Virus record (IMG/VR): IMGVR_UViG_3300046535_001697
Coordinates: 18,637-82,636 of that record
Origin: a virus
Length of the DNA: 64,000 nt
Direction: 5' to 3' (one strand)
Both the position numbers and the translations under genes were made by a program. Shown piece by piece: positions 27,324 through 64,000 of the stretch (position 1 is the first letter of the stretch; each line of letters opens with the position of its first letter). The notes under the pieces are model-generated. The model was not told the DNA's origin and made no database searches. It saw nothing but the letters and a program-made list of their open reading frames with translations.

Positions 27324-27433
27324 GTAGTTGTCTGGTCCAACGCACCGTGGGCGTGGCCGCTGATTGGCCGGGCTTGGCCGGGCGCCATCGTCCGGCCGCG
27401 TCTCGGTGCCGGACGAGAGGGAGGGGACCTGTC

Positions 27434-28507
27434 ATGATCAGTCCCGAAGTGCGGCCGGTGTTCGTGTCCCGGCCGGCGGTGTTCCTGCCGGAACACGTGG
27501 TGACACGGGAGACGATCCTCGCCGACATGCTCACCCGGCACCCGGACCACCCCCGGGCCCGGCTGCTCCCCCGGCTGCTGGACAAGCTGCCCGCCACGCG
27601 TCGCATGTCCCGGCCGTGGGAGACCGTGATCTCGGATCGGACGTTGGAGGAGCGCAACCGCGGGGCGTTCGCGGACGTGGTGACGATGGGTGGGGCCGCC
27701 GCGCGCCAGGTGCTGGAGCTGCACGGCGTGGACCCGGGCGCCGTGGACTGCGTGGTGACCACGCACTCCACGGGCGACGCCGTCCCCGGCCTGGACGTCC
27801 ACCTGGTCGACGCGCTGGGGCTGCGCCCGGATGTGTCGCGCCGTCCGATGACACAGCTCGGCTGCGGCGGCGGCGCGCACGGCCTGGTGATGGCCGCCGA
27901 GTTCGTGCGGGCCCGCCCCGGGTCGACGGTGCTGGTCGTCGCGGCGGAGTCCCTGTCGAGCATCTACCACCACGGCGACACCGACATCCAAGGCATGATC
28001 TTCAAGGCGCTGTGGGGCGACTCCGGCGCAGCGGTCCTCGTCTCGGACCGGCCGTTCGGGCCGGGGCTGCAGGTCGACGGGCCGACGTGGGAGTACCTGA
28101 TCCCCGGCTCGGCCGGCCGCTACACCAAGCGCCTCGACGCCGACGGCGTGCACTTCGACTCGGTGAAGGCGTCGATGAACTGCGTGCCGGACATGGGCCC
28201 GGCGCTGCGGGAGTGGCTGTGGCAGTACGGCCCGGAGCGGCTCGACTTCGTGGTCGCGCACACCGGCGGCGAGGCCATCCTCGCCTCCCTGGCCGACGAG
28301 CTGGAGCCCCTTGGCGTCGACACCGGCATGCTGGTCCACTCGTGGGCGTCCCTCGACGAGGAGGGCAACCTCGGCGGGCCGTCCGTGCTGGCTGTCCTGG
28401 ACCGCACCCACGCCGCGCCGCCGAAGCCCGGCGACCGGGGGCTGCTCCTCGGCTTCGGGCCCGGGTTCTCCGTGTCGGCGCTGACCGTGACATGGACTGA
28501 CGGCTGA
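27434..28507 (+). CDS. Type III polyketide synthase (chalcone synthase-like)
   Basis: 357 residues from the ATG with GAGGGAGGGG upstream. The thiolase-fold signature is complete: nucleophile Cys144 in QLGCGGGAHG, His276 in VVAHTGGEAIL and Asn312 in EEGNLGGPSV form the Cys-His-Asn triad, and GFGPG at 340-344 is the hallmark of type III PKSs. A long N-terminal segment (TRHPDHPRARLLPRLLDKL) may shape the tunnel. These enzymes act without a carrier protein, extending an acyl-CoA with malonyl-CoA. Substrate and product cannot be read from sequence. Such an enzyme on a phage-plasmid is unusual cargo. Confidence 0.88.
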   Translation: MISPEVRPVFVSRPAVFLPEHVVTRETILADMLTRHPDHPRARLLPRLLDKLPATRRMSRPWETVISDRTLEERNRGAFADVVTMGGAAARQVLELHGVDPGAVDCVVTTHSTGDAVPGLDVHLVDALGLRPDVSRRPMTQLGCGGGAHGLVMAAEFVRARPGSTVLVVAAESLSSIYHHGDTDIQGMIFKALWGDSGAAVLVSDRPFGPGLQVDGPTWEYLIPGSAGRYTKRLDADGVHFDSVKASMNCVPDMGPALREWLWQYGPERLDFVVAHTGGEAILASLADELEPLGVDTGMLVHSWASLDEEGNLGGPSVLAVLDRTHAAPPKPGDRGLLLGFGPGFSVSALTVTWTDG

Positions 28508-32568: not shown

Positions 32569-33057
32569 TCAGTTGGCGCGGTTCTTCCAGCCGGATGCGG
32601 CGCTGGCGTGGCTGGTCGCGGTGGAGTGGGAGGTGGAGCCGGTGTTGCTGTTGTTGATGTTGACGGTGACTTTGGCGGAGGAGCCCTTGAGGAGGCTGAC
32701 GGCCGCGGCGGCGACGCCGACGGCCAGGCCGGCGCCCTCGGCGGCGTGGGCGAACTCGGCGAGGCCGTGGGCGTAGTGGCCAACCGCAACAGCGACACCG
32801 GCGATGGTGCCGCCGGAGGCAACGATGCGGGCGGGCCACGGGTCACGGGGTGCCTGCTGGACGATGACCGGCGCCGGGGCCGGCTGGGGCTGGGGGGCGG
32901 CACGGGGCTCGGGCGCCGGGGTGTCGTTCATGTAGACGGCGACGGGCTTGTGGTCCTCGACACCGATGGCGATGCCGATGCCGGTGAACTGCCCGGCAGC
33001 GAGGTCGGCCTGGGTTGCGTAGGCGGTGCGGTCGGCGGACTGCTGGGTGGTGGTCAC
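32569..33057 (-). CDS. Spread-type membrane protein beside the translocase
   Basis: 162 residues. A soluble N-terminus (GQFTGIGIAIGVEDHKPVAV) and a Pro/Ala linker lead to two hydrophobic helices (RIVASGGTIAGVAVAVGHYA and GAGLAVGVAAAAVSLLKG). A Ser/Thr/Asn-rich tail with VTVNINNSNTGSTSHSTATS follows. Its start overlaps the end of the FtsK/TraB gene. Small membrane proteins in this position in Streptomyces plasmids are often Spd-type factors for intramycelial plasmid spreading. The assignment rests on context. Confidence 0.65.
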   Translation of the reverse strand: MTTTQQSADRTAYATQADLAAGQFTGIGIAIGVEDHKPVAVYMNDTPAPEPRAAPQPQPAPAPVIVQQAPRDPWPARIVASGGTIAGVAVAVGHYAHGLAEFAHAAEGAGLAVGVAAAAVSLLKGSSAKVTVNINNSNTGSTSHSTATSHASAASGWKNRAN

Positions 33058-35237
33058 TGCTGCTCCTCGGGGGCGTCGGTGCGGTGCTTGACGTGGGCGT
33101 AGGCGCCGCGCATGGGCTTGTAGAACTGGGGCTCGGCCTTCAGCCAGTCCGTGATGGCGGACCGGGACGGTGCCGGGGCAACCGGGAAGATCACGGCGAA
33201 GAGTTCACGGATGGCGTCGGGGCCGATACCGGACGGGCCGGCCTTGACGACGATGCTGAAGACGGTGGGCCAGCGGGCGTCGTCGCTGACGCCGGGGGTG
33301 GGCGTGGGGCCAGTTGCCTGCTTCGGCGCCGGGGCGGACTCGGGGGTGAGGTGCGCGGGGGGCTTCCACAGGGCGCCGCCCTCGCCGAGGATCTCCCGGA
33401 ACTGCCGGTCGAGGTCGGCGTCGTGGCTGGTGGTCTCGTTCATGGCGCCGCGTACGCGGTTGCGGGTCTCCTCGGCGGCGGCGATGGCGTCAGCGGCGCT
33501 TCCGGCGGGCGGTGTGCTGTCCCAGTCGGCGGTGACGCTGCGCCTCGGCGTGCTGTTCCCGTCCGTGGTCGGGCCGGCCTGCGGGGGGACGGCGTCCATG
33601 ATTCCGGCGAGGATGCTGTCGGGGTCCTGGACGTCGATGAGGAACAGGTGGTCGGTGTTGTCCCAGCGCCGCTCGTACGCTTCACCGGCGACCTTGCGGG
33701 ATGCGGCGTCGAGTTCGGGGCGGCGGGTGCTGACCTCCTGGATGAGGGCCATCATGATGTCGGGCTTCATGAGGTAGGTCTTGAACGGGCGGGCGTGCTT
33801 GCGGCCGAACTTGAGGAAGCCGCAGCCCTCGTAGGGGGCGTCTTCGGGCTTGAGGCGCTCATTCCAGCCGAACAGGTAGTTCAGCTCGGCTTCGGTGTCG
33901 ACGCCGAGGCCGATCTTCATGATGGACTGCTTGAGGACCTGCGGTTCGGCGATGACGTCCTGGGTGGCGCGCAGGGCAGCGTTCTCGACGTTGCAGGCGG
34001 TGGCCCGGCCGATCTCGATGATCTCGACGATGTTGTCGCCGACCTTGCGGAGGATCTCGTCGCGGCGGGCGCGCTGCGAGAAGAGCATGGCGATCTCGTC
34101 GTTGTTGAGGGTCAGGGCGGGGATGCGCGGGGTGACGGGCAGCTTGTCGTCGTTGGCCTGGAGCTCGAGGGCCTTGTAGGCGGTCTTGCGGATCTTGGCG
34201 ATGCGCTTCATGGCCTCGGTCATGGCGAGGGCCTTTTCGGGGGTGTCGGCGACCCAGTCGACGGGGGGCTTGCCGGGCTTGCCGAGCTGCGTCCACAGAT
34301 GGAGCCAGGGCAGGGCGAGGTTGCCGCCGTTGAGGTCGATGACCCAGACGAGGTTGTCGACCATGCGGAGCTGGTTGGCGATCTTGACGTTCATCAAGTT
34401 GGACTTGCCGGAGCCGCGCTGGCCGACGGTGACGCTGGAGGCCTGGCGCATGACGGCGCCGGCCTTCTCGCCGTCCTGGTAGACGCCGATCGCGGTGAAG
34501 TCATTGATCGACAGGGGGGAGAAGTCCATGGGGTAGGGGACGTCGTCGAGGAGGTGGTTGACGGTGGCGACGTTGACGAGTGCGGTGCCTCGGTCGGCGC
34601 CGGCTGTGACCTCGACGCCGCAGCCCTCGGGGAGGCGGGCGTCGCCGGCGAGCCGGTCCTCGAACGGCTTGAGTTGGCGCCAGGTGGTGCCGCCCGGGGG
34701 GACGATCTCCAGGGTGTAGCCGCCGCCGCTGTCCCACTGCTCGATGGCGAGGACGGTGGTGTTGTGGACGGCGCAGACGCGGCCGATGCGGGCGGTCCAT
34801 TCGGCGGCGAGTTCGGTGCGCAGGGCCTGGGCGGCGTTGGCGATGTCGGTGGCCTGCTGGTCGGCGGCGGCCTGGGCGGTGGCGCGCCCGGTGCGGGCTT
34901 CGCCGGTCCAGGCCATGCCGAGGCCGATGGTTCCGGCGGCGAGGGTGCCGAGGCTGGTGGTGGTCCAGGGGCTGGTGGCCATGGCCCAGGAGCACCAGGT
35001 GCCGGCGCCGGCCCAGGTGGCGGCTCGGACGGCGAGGCTGGTGCCGGTGATGTGGTGGGTGCCGCGCTGGCGGACGCCGGCGAGGTGGTGGCCGAGGAGG
35101 CCGGCGCCGGCGGTGGCGGCGGCCCACATGGGGGGCATGTGGGCGACGTGGCCGGCCCAGGCGGCGGCGAGGGTGGCGCCGGCGATGTTGAGGGGGCCGG
35201 TGACGGGGCCGTGGCCGGCTTCCCAGTCGACGTTCAC
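33054..35237 (-). CDS. FtsK/SpoIIIE-type DNA translocase (TraB-like)
   Basis: 727 residues from a GTG. Membrane segments lie at about residues 15-50 and 67-110. The ATPase has Walker A GQRGSGKSN (272-280) and a Walker B-type IPALTLNNDEIAML (Asp380, Glu381). The C-terminus (WPTVFSIVVKAGPSGIGPDA, then APSRSAITDWLKAEPQFYK) looks like a winged helix, as in TraB and FtsK-gamma modules that read short DNA repeats. Streptomyces TraB proteins move double-stranded plasmid DNA between cells. In a phage-plasmid it could serve conjugative transfer or segregation. Confidence 0.87.
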   Translation of the reverse strand: MNVDWEAGHGPVTGPLNIAGATLAAAWAGHVAHMPPMWAAATAGAGLLGHHLAGVRQRGTHHITGTSLAVRAATWAGAGTWCSWAMATSPWTTTSLGTLAAGTIGLGMAWTGEARTGRATAQAAADQQATDIANAAQALRTELAAEWTARIGRVCAVHNTTVLAIEQWDSGGGYTLEIVPPGGTTWRQLKPFEDRLAGDARLPEGCGVEVTAGADRGTALVNVATVNHLLDDVPYPMDFSPLSINDFTAIGVYQDGEKAGAVMRQASSVTVGQRGSGKSNLMNVKIANQLRMVDNLVWVIDLNGGNLALPWLHLWTQLGKPGKPPVDWVADTPEKALAMTEAMKRIAKIRKTAYKALELQANDDKLPVTPRIPALTLNNDEIAMLFSQRARRDEILRKVGDNIVEIIEIGRATACNVENAALRATQDVIAEPQVLKQSIMKIGLGVDTEAELNYLFGWNERLKPEDAPYEGCGFLKFGRKHARPFKTYLMKPDIMMALIQEVSTRRPELDAASRKVAGEAYERRWDNTDHLFLIDVQDPDSILAGIMDAVPPQAGPTTDGNSTPRRSVTADWDSTPPAGSAADAIAAAEETRNRVRGAMNETTSHDADLDRQFREILGEGGALWKPPAHLTPESAPAPKQATGPTPTPGVSDDARWPTVFSIVVKAGPSGIGPDAIRELFAVIFPVAPAPSRSAITDWLKAEPQFYKPMRGAYAHVKHRTDAPEEQQ

Positions 35238-35335
35238 GGTGGCGGGTTCTCCTGTCGGTGGCGGTCGGTGGCCGCGGGTCGGTGAGGGTGGCGGGAGGGC
35301 GGCCGCCCGGGCGAGGGCCCGGGCGGCCGGGCTGG

Positions 35336-36895
35336 TCAGTGGAAGTCGACGTTCGCGGCGATGTCCCACATCTCCTCGCCGGGGCGCGGGTTGCGGTGAC
35401 GCTCGAGGTCGACGTGGTGGAGGTTCTCGAACGCGGGGGCGAGCTCTCCGGCCATCTCGGCGGCCTTCTGGGTGAGCTGGTAGATGCCGCGCATCAGCTC
35501 GATGATCTGCGGGTCCAAGGGGTAGGGGCCGTCGGCCTTCTCGGTGGTGATCTTCATGGCCTCGGCGACAAGCTGCAGTGCATCCGGGAGGCTGGCGAAG
35601 TCCTGGCCGACCTGGAGCATGGCGGTCGGCTCGTAGGCGGAGGCGGCACGGGCCATCTCCACGGCGGCGGCGGTGAAGTGGTGACCGGACATGTCGGTGG
35701 CTCCCTGGGTCGTGGTGGACGGGCTGAAGGTGGTGGCGCCGGCGGGGCGGCGGATGGTGCCGCCGATCTCCGGCTCCGTGGTGTCGATGGCGGGCTGCGC
35801 GGAGGCGGCCTTGGCGGCTGCGCGTTCCGCCCGTGCTGCGCGGCGGCGGGCCCAGGTGGCGCGCATCCGGGCCCAGCCGGTCTTGCCCGACCAGTTCCAG
35901 ATGCCGTGCCACAGGCCGGCACCGACGGACAGGAAGCCGTCCCATCCGACCGCGGCGGTCTTGCGGGTGCCTCGGCCGAGGGCGGCGAGCACCCGGGCCC
36001 GGTGCGGCTTCGTCTTCACGATGGCGGTGCGGGTGCCGGCGGCGGCGAGGGTGGCGCCGCGCTTCCCGGCCCGGCCGGCCGTGGCGGTCAGGCGGCGCCG
36101 GGCAGCGGCCCGGCTGTTCTTCCTGTCCGCGGTGAGGGCAGCGGCGGCCTTCTCCTCCTTCGAGAGCTGCCCCGCCTTCCCGGCGCCGGTCCGCTCGGCA
36201 GAGCGGTCGGCACGGCCGGTGCCGCCGGACAGCCGGTCGGCGATCCGGCCCAGACGCCCCGCCTTCCCTCCGCCGTCGACCCGCCCCGAGTTGGCGCCAA
36301 CACCCGACGCTGCGCCGGTCCCGTTCTGGCGGCCGAGGGACCAGCTGGTCGACGACGGACGTTGTCCTGTCCCGCCACTCCTGGCGCCGGCACCGCCGCC
36401 GACACCGCCCCGGCTGCCGCCGCCGGAGAGCAGACCGCCGCGGGCGCTGTTGGCGCCAGAACGGGTACCGCCAGGAGCGAGCAACCCGGCCTTCGCCGTC
36501 TTGTTGGCGGTCTGCTTCTTGACGGTGGCGCGGCGCTTCAGGACCGCCGCCGTGGTGCCGCCAAGCGCGAGGCCGGCCGCGCCGCCGATGCCGGGGAGGC
36601 CGGCGATCTGGTAGGCGGCGGTCAGGGCGGTGGCGGTGCCGTTGGCGGCGGCCACGAGGGCGGGCGCGGCGGGGATGCCCTTGCGGCGGGCGGTCTTCTT
36701 GTCGGCCTTCTGGTCGCGGGCAAGTTCGGTGAGGGCGGCCTGGGCGGCCGGGGACTGGGTCTTCCAGTCGATGGCGGGTGCGGGGGCGCCGGGGGTGACG
36801 TACACGGAGTCGTGGTCGGGCTGGGGGGTGGTTGTTGCCGGTGCGCGGGTCGGCGCGGGCGGCGCTTGGGTCTGGGACACCGGGCTCTCCTTCAA
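35336..36895 (-). CDS. Conjugation-module protein with Gly/Arg-rich middle
   Basis: 519 residues. The N-terminus is Pro-rich. A hydrophobic Ala/Gly stretch (ALVAAANGTATALTAAYQIA, then GIGGAAGLALGG) follows. A long low-complexity basic region (residues about 130-300, rich in Gly, Arg and Ser) precedes a helical segment with GLWHGIWNWSGKTGWARMRA. The C-terminal 120 residues are helical (VEMARAASAYEPTAMLQVGQ, then LMRGIYQLTQKAAEMAGELA) and resemble proteins found next to TraB-like genes in Streptomyces elements. The basic region could bind DNA. No enzymatic motif was seen. Confidence 0.68.
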   Translation of the reverse strand: MKESPVSQTQAPPAPTRAPATTTPQPDHDSVYVTPGAPAPAIDWKTQSPAAQAALTELARDQKADKKTARRKGIPAAPALVAAANGTATALTAAYQIAGLPGIGGAAGLALGGTTAAVLKRRATVKKQTANKTAKAGLLAPGGTRSGANSARGGLLSGGGSRGGVGGGAGARSGGTGQRPSSTSWSLGRQNGTGAASGVGANSGRVDGGGKAGRLGRIADRLSGGTGRADRSAERTGAGKAGQLSKEEKAAAALTADRKNSRAAARRRLTATAGRAGKRGATLAAAGTRTAIVKTKPHRARVLAALGRGTRKTAAVGWDGFLSVGAGLWHGIWNWSGKTGWARMRATWARRRAARAERAAAKAASAQPAIDTTEPEIGGTIRRPAGATTFSPSTTTQGATDMSGHHFTAAAVEMARAASAYEPTAMLQVGQDFASLPDALQLVAEAMKITTEKADGPYPLDPQIIELMRGIYQLTQKAAEMAGELAPAFENLHHVDLERHRNPRPGEEMWDIAANVDFH

Positions 36896-61965: not shown

Positions 61966-62567
61966 GGCTTCTCCGCTCGTCCGGCACACGAGGAGGGGGG
62001 CTGGAGCTGTTTCGGGCGGCGGCGTTGCCGGTGACCGTGCCCGGATGATCAGAGTGCCGTGCTGCGGGGGTTGCGGCCAGTGGATGCGGGGATGCTGACC
62101 ACATCCTGGCCTGTCACCACCGTTCGGTGACTGAAATGGGAGCGTCCCTCACACTGCGCGCACATGTTTTGCCGACAAGGACAACGCAGCGGAGGGACAC
62201 CACATCACAGTCCCTTCACCCCCGACGGGGGATCAGGTAGGCCGGAACCGTGGTTCCGACCGTGCGGCGATTGTAGACACCCCGACCGGCGCCCTGATAG
62301 GGACCCCGGCGAATGCACACACCACCTACGCGATTGGCATATGCCAGACGCCTGCGGTGTGGGCCCGCAGACCCAGGGCCCCCGGCCCTCACCTGGGCGG
62401 GAGGGTAAACCCGGTTTACCCCTCGACCCCGTGCCCGGTCCGCCAGCCGAGCCGGCCCGCGGGACGCCCCCGGTGCGACACGCTCACCGCATCCCGTCCC
62501 TTGCCCCCACAGCCCGGTCTGGGAGACTGTCCGCTGCCCGTAGTACCAGACCATTGGGAATCAAACG
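61966..62567. other. Large non-coding region upstream of parA
   Basis: No gene is supported. It contains several inverted elements: GTCACC with CGGTGAC near 62117, GTCCCTC with GAGGGAC around 62142-62205, TGGCATATGCCA near 62336, and the parS-like palindrome at 62403-62421. The AT content is locally raised near 62160-62340. This is a likely site for parAB control, a centromere and possibly a replication origin. Confidence 0.5.
62403..62421. promoter_or_regulatory. Candidate parS site 1 (GGGTAAACC-C-GGTTTACCC)
   Basis: A perfect nine-base inverted repeat with one central base, 147 bases before parA. The identical 19-mer, within a shared block of about 24 bases starting CGGGAGGG, occurs again at 63981-63999 inside parB. 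Palindromic repeats flanking parAB are typical ParB-binding centromeres. Confidence 0.75.
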
Positions 62568-63236
62568 GTGACTCACATGCAATCCTCTGTCCTCGTCGTG
62601 TCCACAGACCCTCAGGGCTCCGCCGTATGGTGGGCCGACCGGGTCGACGAAGGCCTCCCCTTCGATTTCGCGCAGGCCCACGACGACCCCTCCGGCCTCA
62701 AGGCCCTCCGCGACTTCGGCGCGAAAATCCACGTCGTCGCGAACCAGAAGGGCGGCGTCGGCAAGACCACCCTCGCCATCAATCTCGGCGCCGTCGTCTA
62801 CGACACCATCGGCCAGGCCCCCGGCTACAAGCACATCTTCATCGACACCCCCGGCAGCCTCGAGGACGAACGGCTCCTCGCCGCGTCCCTCGCCATCGCC
62901 GACGACGTCCTCGTGCCGATGCCGCCCGAGCCTCTCGCGTTCGATCCGACCGCCCGCACCATCGAGCAGGTCATCCGGCCGCGCGAGCTGCCGTTCCGCG
63001 TCGTCATCAACAACTGGGACCCCCGCGACGGCAAGGCCGACCTCGAAGAGACCCAGCAGTACATAGACGCACAGGGCTGGCCCCGGACCACATCGGTGAT
63101 CCGCCGCTACAAAATCCACACCCGGGCTTCCGCCGAGGGCCGCGTCGTCACCCAGTACCAGCGCAACAGGGTCGCCATGGAGGCCCGCGAGGACTTCTTC
63201 CGCTGCGCCCTCGAGCTGAACTACGGGGGGAACTGA
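62568..63236 (+). CDS. parA: ParA-family partition ATPase with permuted N-terminal segments
   Basis: 222 residues. The ParA motifs are all present but out of order: STDPQGSAVWWADRV (switch I, residues 12-26) comes before the deviant Walker A VANQKGGVGKTTLAINL (57-73), which is followed after only about 20 residues by IFIDTPG (Walker B, 90-96). Exchanging the blocks M4-D49 (62577-62714) and F50-Q83 (62715-62816) gives a normal ParA with the usual spacing of about 70 residues between Walker A and B. The rest (FRVVINNWDPRDGKADLEET, then RYKIHTRASAEGRVVTQYQR) is ordinary. The ribosome site is weak. The gene overlaps parB (TGATG). Confidence 0.85.
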   Translation: MTHMQSSVLVVSTDPQGSAVWWADRVDEGLPFDFAQAHDDPSGLKALRDFGAKIHVVANQKGGVGKTTLAINLGAVVYDTIGQAPGYKHIFIDTPGSLEDERLLAASLAIADDVLVPMPPEPLAFDPTARTIEQVIRPRELPFRVVINNWDPRDGKADLEETQQYIDAQGWPRTTSVIRRYKIHTRASAEGRVVTQYQRNRVAMEAREDFFRCALELNYGGN

Positions 63237-64000
63237 TGGGGTCCGGACGTCGCGTCAACCTCGCGACCCTGCCGGGCAAGCCGTTCAACCCCGCAGCCGA
63301 CACCGAGCCGGCGCCGCCCGCCGCCCCGGCCCCCACGGCGGACCGCGGGCACCGGGCGGTCGGCGTGCCGCTGGCGGCCATCGTGTTCAACCCGCTGAAC
63401 CCGCGCCGTACCTTCGTCGAGGAGACCCTCGCCGAGCTCGCGGACAGCCTGCGCACGCACGGCCAGATCTCCCCGATCACCGTCGTCAGCCGGGCCGCGT
63501 TCCTCGCCGCACACCCCGGTCAGGAGGGTGCGCTGGGTGACGCCGAGTTCGTTGCCCTCGAGGGCAACCGCCGCCTGAACGCTGCCCACCGGGCTGGCCT
63601 CGAGGAGCTGCGGGTCGACCTCAACGACGACCTGGCGGCGACCGCGGCTGACATGCTGCAGTCCGCGCTCGCGGCGAACACCCACCGGGAGGCGGTCCCC
63701 GAACTCGAGGAGGCCCGCGCCATCCAGGAACTCCTGGACCGCAGGTACGACGGCAACCAGGCGGCCGTCGCCCGGGCGCTCTCCAAGACGTCGGCGTGGG
63801 TCGGCCAGCGCCTGGCCCTGCTCCACCTCACCCCCGAGGTGCAGGAGATGGTGGAGAGCCGGGAGCTCACGGTGAAGGCGGCCCGGCAGATCGGCGCGGC
63901 AACCCGCCGCGGGGATCTGACCCCGGAGGAGCAGCTGGCCGCCGCACGGGAGGCCCTGGCGAAGCCCGCCGGCCCCGGGAGGGTAAACCCGGTTTACCCT
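63236..64000 (+). CDS. parB: ParB-family partition protein (partial)
   Basis: 255 codons are visible and the 3' end is beyond the window. After a Pro/Ala-rich N-terminal arm come the ParB/Srx motifs VFNPLNPRRTFVEETLAELA (NPRR), GQISPITVVSR and FVALEGNRRLNAAHRAGLEE (EGNRR in place of GERR). Next come SALAANTHREAVPELEEARA and an HTH (NQAAVARALSKTSAWVGQRL). The start overlaps the parA stop. A parS-like palindrome sits in the coding sequence at the window edge. Confidence 0.92.
   Translation, partial: MGSGRRVNLATLPGKPFNPAADTEPAPPAAPAPTADRGHRAVGVPLAAIVFNPLNPRRTFVEETLAELADSLRTHGQISPITVVSRAAFLAAHPGQEGALGDAEFVALEGNRRLNAAHRAGLEELRVDLNDDLAATAADMLQSALAANTHREAVPELEEARAIQELLDRRYDGNQAAVARALSKTSAWVGQRLALLHLTPEVQEMVESRELTVKAARQIGAATRRGDLTPEEQLAAAREALAKPAGPGRVNPVYP
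63981..63999. promoter_or_regulatory. Candidate parS site 2 inside parB
   Basis: The 19-base palindrome is identical to the one at 62403-62421. Here it is translated as part of ParB (GRVNPVYP), so the centromere site is kept within coding DNA. Confidence 0.72.

Follow-up and report, generated by a model that had tools for sequence, protein, structure and literature searches.

The parA gene at 62577–63236 of the analysed window (a stretch of 64,000 nucleotides) putatively encodes a ParA ATPase that is functional in the ParABS system of a Streptomyces-type phage-plasmid and whose first two sub-blocks have changed places relative to the ancestral protein. The probability of this reading is put at about 0.87. 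It is also likely that the exchange represents a fixed, putatively functional non-circular permutation in the ParA/MinD class, with core strands reconnected, the active site kept, one origin, and phage-plasmid spread through actinomycetes. Among the three options raised in a preliminary description of this DNA (a working permuted ParA, a dead partition gene, an assembly or editing artefact), the first appears best supported.

The open reading frame of 222 codons at 62568–63236 (+) encodes a ParA-type ATPase. Its motifs follow the order A′, Walker A, Walker B; the usual ParA order (Walker A, A′, Walker B) is absent from the protein. Motif contexts are STDPQGS (A′), NQKGGVGKTT (Walker A) and HIFIDTPG (Walker B). 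Numbered from the GTG start, DPQ occupies residues 14–16, KGGVGKTT residues 61–68 and IDTP residues 92–95. Each motif is present in a single copy, which indicates a swap and not a duplication. For the family, duplication or intein-like insertion is ruled out by the presence of one Walker A and one A′ at the expected spacing in each reading frame. The real start is probably the ATG at 62577 (residue 4), since an ATG is found at the equivalent place, 1–3 codons before β2, in 38 of the 39 other permuted reading frames located; the exception is L018, in which the searched stretch has no start codon. The product is 219 amino acids long from this ATG (62577–63236, +) and 222 amino acids long from the alternative GTG at 62568.

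Block boundaries are set by homology. Block B (62577–62717, +; residues 4–50 in GTG-start numbering) comprises β2-α2-β3-α3, is now N-terminal and bears the A′ or switch I motif D-P-Q (62607–62615, +), the Asp of which is invariant in the alignment. Block A (62718–62816, +; residues 51–83) comprises β1, the P-loop and α1, is now internal and bears the deviant Walker A motif KGGVGKTT (62748–62771, +) with the signature Lys and the P-loop Lys. Its first residue, Gly51, corresponds to the start Met of relatives with the ordinary A-B order. Block C (62817–63233, +) extends from β4, with Walker B (IDTPG), to the C-terminus and is collinear with ordinary ParA. Re-reading of the frame and of the motif positions upheld the motif and block order, frame and coordinates of the preliminary description, and its proposal that two adjacent ParA segments are exchanged with the frame intact is borne out by the same order in 42 sequences. 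Both segments had been taken for single β-α units, which is correct for block A (β1-α1); block B holds two such units. The boundary between them had been drawn at residues 49/50, and homology shifts the beginning of block A to Gly51, the exchange itself being confirmed. With Gly51 at the ancestral Met position, the restored N-terminus becomes M-A-K-I-H-V in place of the proposed MTH-FGAKIHVV.

The permuted order is read in 42 sequences (near-identical records counted separately). With that of the window among them, these correspond to 38 distinct proteins and come from Streptomyces, Kitasatospora, Embleya, Actinocorallia and Actinomadura. The database search suggested earlier for the same order thus recovered it from phages, plasmids and genomes, and occurrence in five genera refutes the view of the swap as a feature of the window molecule alone. 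Permuted relatives on GTDB contigs, obtained by protein search, number 27 (L003–L028 and L037); measured from Walker A, their A′ is at −47 to −49 and their Walker B at +29 or +30. In the whole permuted set the A′ spacing extends to −51 (pSLE1), and Walker B is at +29/30. This repetition of one order with almost fixed spacing places the swap well beyond chance. The order is also present in six IMG/VR contigs, Streptomyces phage ZL12, plasmids pSAM1, pSLE1 and pCQ3, another Streptomyces plasmid, a Kitasatospora cathayae plasmid, and a 1.7-Mb Kitasatospora plasmid. Plasmid records collinear with the window protein at 60–80% identity number 34; the motif order was read in some of these. No other permuted case outside the family was found by a motif-order search of IMG/VR and 397 Actinomycetota genomes, which required exact DPQ and KGGVGK, so that variant motifs would escape; the remaining matches are due to chance.

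An assembly, editing or other sequence artefact, one of the three original options, is practically excluded. The assembly does have at least one weak spot, a repeat near parA at which the contig stops, but many independent records show the same order, among them complete plasmids and PacBio-assembled pSLE1, and an independent Kitasatospora contig encodes a permuted protein 88% identical to that of the window. The pSLE1 assembly is based on PacBio and Illumina data (PMC4487206). The contig end is a 24-base repeat (63976–64000), also present upstream of parA (62398–62421). Because the contig ends exactly there, the record is probably broken at the candidate parS repeat. A continuation of parB was not seen at the start of the record.

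The nearest relatives outside the permuted group have the normal order and belong to Micromonospora, Pseudonocardia, Dactylosporangium and Salinispora (about 57% identity). More distant normal-order relatives occur in Nocardia, Mycobacterium, Rhodococcus, Saccharothrix and some Streptomyces plasmids. Homologues with the A-B order, named in the preliminary description as possible evidence of a misreading, are thus present in the sister group, where they represent the ancestral state; the order in the window was not misread. A full-length tree, built with the blocks restored to the standard order, places the permuted proteins on one side of a single branch within the normal-order ParAs, with modest support (81/66). 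Nested among A-B relatives in this way, the permuted order is derived. Block C alone, which is independent of the arrangement, gives a tree needing two changes; the AU test does not reject a single clade (p = 0.384). Most simply, the swap would have a single origin, and the shared break positions favour one event.

Most permuted proteins have the B-A junction GA[KQR][IV]HV[IV]A. Relatives with the A-B order begin with M[AT][RQ][IV]HV; L095 has MARVHVIA where a permuted junction reads GARVHVIA. This match between junctions and N-termini places the start of block A at Gly51. Block A thus begins at the ancestral protein start, the start Met having become Gly. The pattern fits in-frame tandem duplication with loss of the outer A and the inner B, and duplication followed by partial loss is a known route to permuted proteins. 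Such an origin is likely. The A-B part would have been duplicated in frame to give A-B-A-B-C, the first A (creating a new start) and the second B would then have been lost to give B-A-C, and the internalised start Met would have been replaced by Gly. An A-B-A-B-C intermediate was not found among the sequences examined. No remnant of block A upstream of parA scores above shuffles, a marginal score being obtained in one of about 40 loci. As to the origin only, a chimera is an unlikely alternative, in which block A of one ParA lineage was inserted between β3/α3 and β4 of another lacking its own A. The closest relatives do differ between blocks: Pseudonocardia/Saccharothrix for block A (mean 74%), the Micromonospora group for block C (65%) and L092 for block B (59%). 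Blocks A and B, however, are only 33 and 45 residues long and highly conserved, so that these differences may be noise, and the full-length tree puts the permuted proteins beside one A-B group.

Pfam AAA_31 matches the P-loop region of the window protein (43.8 bits, cut-off 27), and CbiA matches too. The NCBIfam ParA_partition model gives 76.5 bits against a cut-off of 180, with the best stretch C-terminal (residues 85–206), a shortfall that would suit a real swap in a functionally dead protein, a scrambled ParA kept by chance or decaying. That the gene is dead, the second of the original options, is highly improbable and is contradicted by several features. Values of dN/dS are 0.07–0.20 in nine pairs (0.20 in the pair of the window with L003), and stops are absent; judged by these ratios, the permuted parA is under purifying selection. 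The P-loop and signature lysines and the Asp residues of A′ and Walker B are invariant in 29 aligned permuted proteins; for A′ and Walker B, the invariant positions are D11, P12, Q13, D90 and P92. The partner gene parB and the palindromes are intact across many lineages. Weak GTPase-like profile matches and Ras-like fold matches are also obtained and probably reflect the short Walker A–Walker B distance.

The permuted ParA is predicted to fold compactly. AlphaFold with 29 permuted homologues, a shallow alignment, gives pTM 0.82 and mean pLDDT 75.6 (five models, 57.0–75.6), with pLDDT 59–72 across residues 11–40. The predicted strand-helix succession is as expected, and the chain would follow the path β2-α2-β3-α3-β1-α1-β4 onward. 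A relative with the A-B order, modelled with eight sequences only, gives pTM 0.72. In the PDB, the permuted model matches ParA 3cwq and ParF best, in agreement with the sequence profile. Foldseek gives TM of about 0.6 to several ParF chains, a value that cannot locate the moved strands because the alignment follows sequence order. The usual sheet of deviant Walker A proteins has the strand order 3-2-4-1-5-6-7, from which the moved strands can be inferred to occupy their normal ParA sheet positions. The swap would alter the links between strands; the crossover direction, and hence the helix side, can stay unchanged.

The gene parB (ParB_N and HTH_ParB; 63236–64000, +) is located directly downstream of parA, as is characteristic of ParABS. 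Its ATG shares one base with the stop codon of parA, and the contig end cuts the gene. The ParB N-terminus, M(A)G[RK]R[TV][SN]LA.LA, is basic and is found in most operons of both orders. Basic peptides at the N-terminus of ParB proteins make contact with ParA (PMC12260392); with this peptide conserved, the contact is probably retained.

A candidate parS palindrome, GGGTAAACCCGGTTTACCC, is located at 62403–62421 (+), about 155 bases before the parA ATG. A second copy lies within the parB coding sequence (63981–63999, +) and encodes V-N-P-V-Y. Counting both strands, the palindrome has four matches in the window against 0.01 expected. Palindromes occur near parA in most permuted and many ordinary loci, vary in sequence by locus (for example, GGTTTACCGCGGTAAACC and GTATACCGCGGTATAC), and mostly occupy one or both of two positions, 100–200 bases ahead of parA and about 1.4 kb past the parA start. 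On plasmid SCP1, inverted-repeat parS sites have been mapped experimentally both around parB and within it (PMC13245405). The second candidate parS of the window, a predicted site, is likewise inside parB. In the parB of L003 (downstream of 5669), internal palindromes translate as repeated V-N-P-V-N after the HTH, equivalent to V-N-P-V-Y in the window.

In the putative partition system, ATP-bound ParA dimers would bind the nucleoid, ParB on the palindromes would trigger hydrolysis via its basic N-terminal peptide, and, as in ordinary ParABS, the plasmid would be drawn to the daughter cells. Since ParA/MinD relatives serve many jobs, the protein might instead act for the phage-plasmid as a ParA-like regulator or a positioning ATPase, outside partition; this is very unlikely in view of the HTH ParB directly downstream and the candidate centromeres in most loci.

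Small type I ParAs (Synechocystis ParA, 3cwq; TP228 ParF, 4dzz) share with the window ParA the deviant Walker A, A′ and Walker B motifs, a size of about 205–220 amino acids and collinear C-terminal two thirds; in the window ParA, by contrast, the first two sub-blocks are exchanged. No close homologue with the permuted order is present among the solved structures matched. ParAs of A-B order on actinobacterial plasmids (Micromonospora, Pseudonocardia, Dactylosporangium, Nocardia, Rhodococcus) belong to the same family (about 46–60% identity) and have the same parAB layout, with similar nearby palindromes and a similar ParB N-terminus, but differ in the motif order (Walker A, A′, Walker B) and in the start Met right before β1. 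The ParAs of ZL12 (pZL12.17c), pSAM1, pCQ3 and pSLE1 belong to the permuted group, are 61–72% identical to the window protein and are annotated simply as ParA. No mention of their permuted order was found in the open literature searched.

Circularly permuted GTPases of the TRAFAC class (RsgA/YjeQ, YlqF) are P-loop NTPases that work with a permuted motif order, and in this they resemble the window ParA. They differ in being circular permutations, in which the exchange of N- and C-terminal parts involves the whole domain; in the window ParA, two internal segments are exchanged and the C-terminal part is in place. In the open literature searched, nothing relevant was found on permutation or rearrangement in ParA, MinD or deviant Walker A proteins. 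According to a 2026 study of SCP1, which includes a survey of partition systems on Streptomyces plasmids, plasmid ParAs keep their ATP-binding residues; its main text does not contain 'permut' or 'swapped'. The permuted ParA, not described in the open literature searched, descends from ParA and probably works alike, and it departs from the linear motif order that defines ParA.

Segment exchange in a compact catalytic domain with the ancestral and derived orders both extant (about 57–60% identity) is rarely caught. As ParA is among the best-studied ATPase switches, the pair provides a natural test of strand connectivity versus strand position, in relation to nucleotide-driven dimerisation and partner activation. 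The rearrangement escapes routine annotation: the label is 'ParA family protein', and profiles match partially.

The source record is an 82.6-kb IMG/VR contig. Genes in the window include terminase, portal, major capsid, tape measure, FtsK-like and replication-initiation genes. Gene content and homologues point to a pZL12-like phage-plasmid as the carrier. Besides phage head and tail genes, the element encodes the FtsK/SpoIIIE-like protein (33054–35945, −; PHROG 31069). At 27347–28507 (+) lies a gene for a type III polyketide synthase of the chalcone/stilbene kind (Pfam Chal_sti_synt_N, 66.5 bits). Related pSLE1 also bears a type III polyketide synthase gene (PMC4487206). In the set of homologues, the ParA sequences L035 and L038 are identical, one from a 'Planctomycetota' MAG and the other from a Pseudonocardiales MAG, and probably represent a mis-binned plasmid contig.
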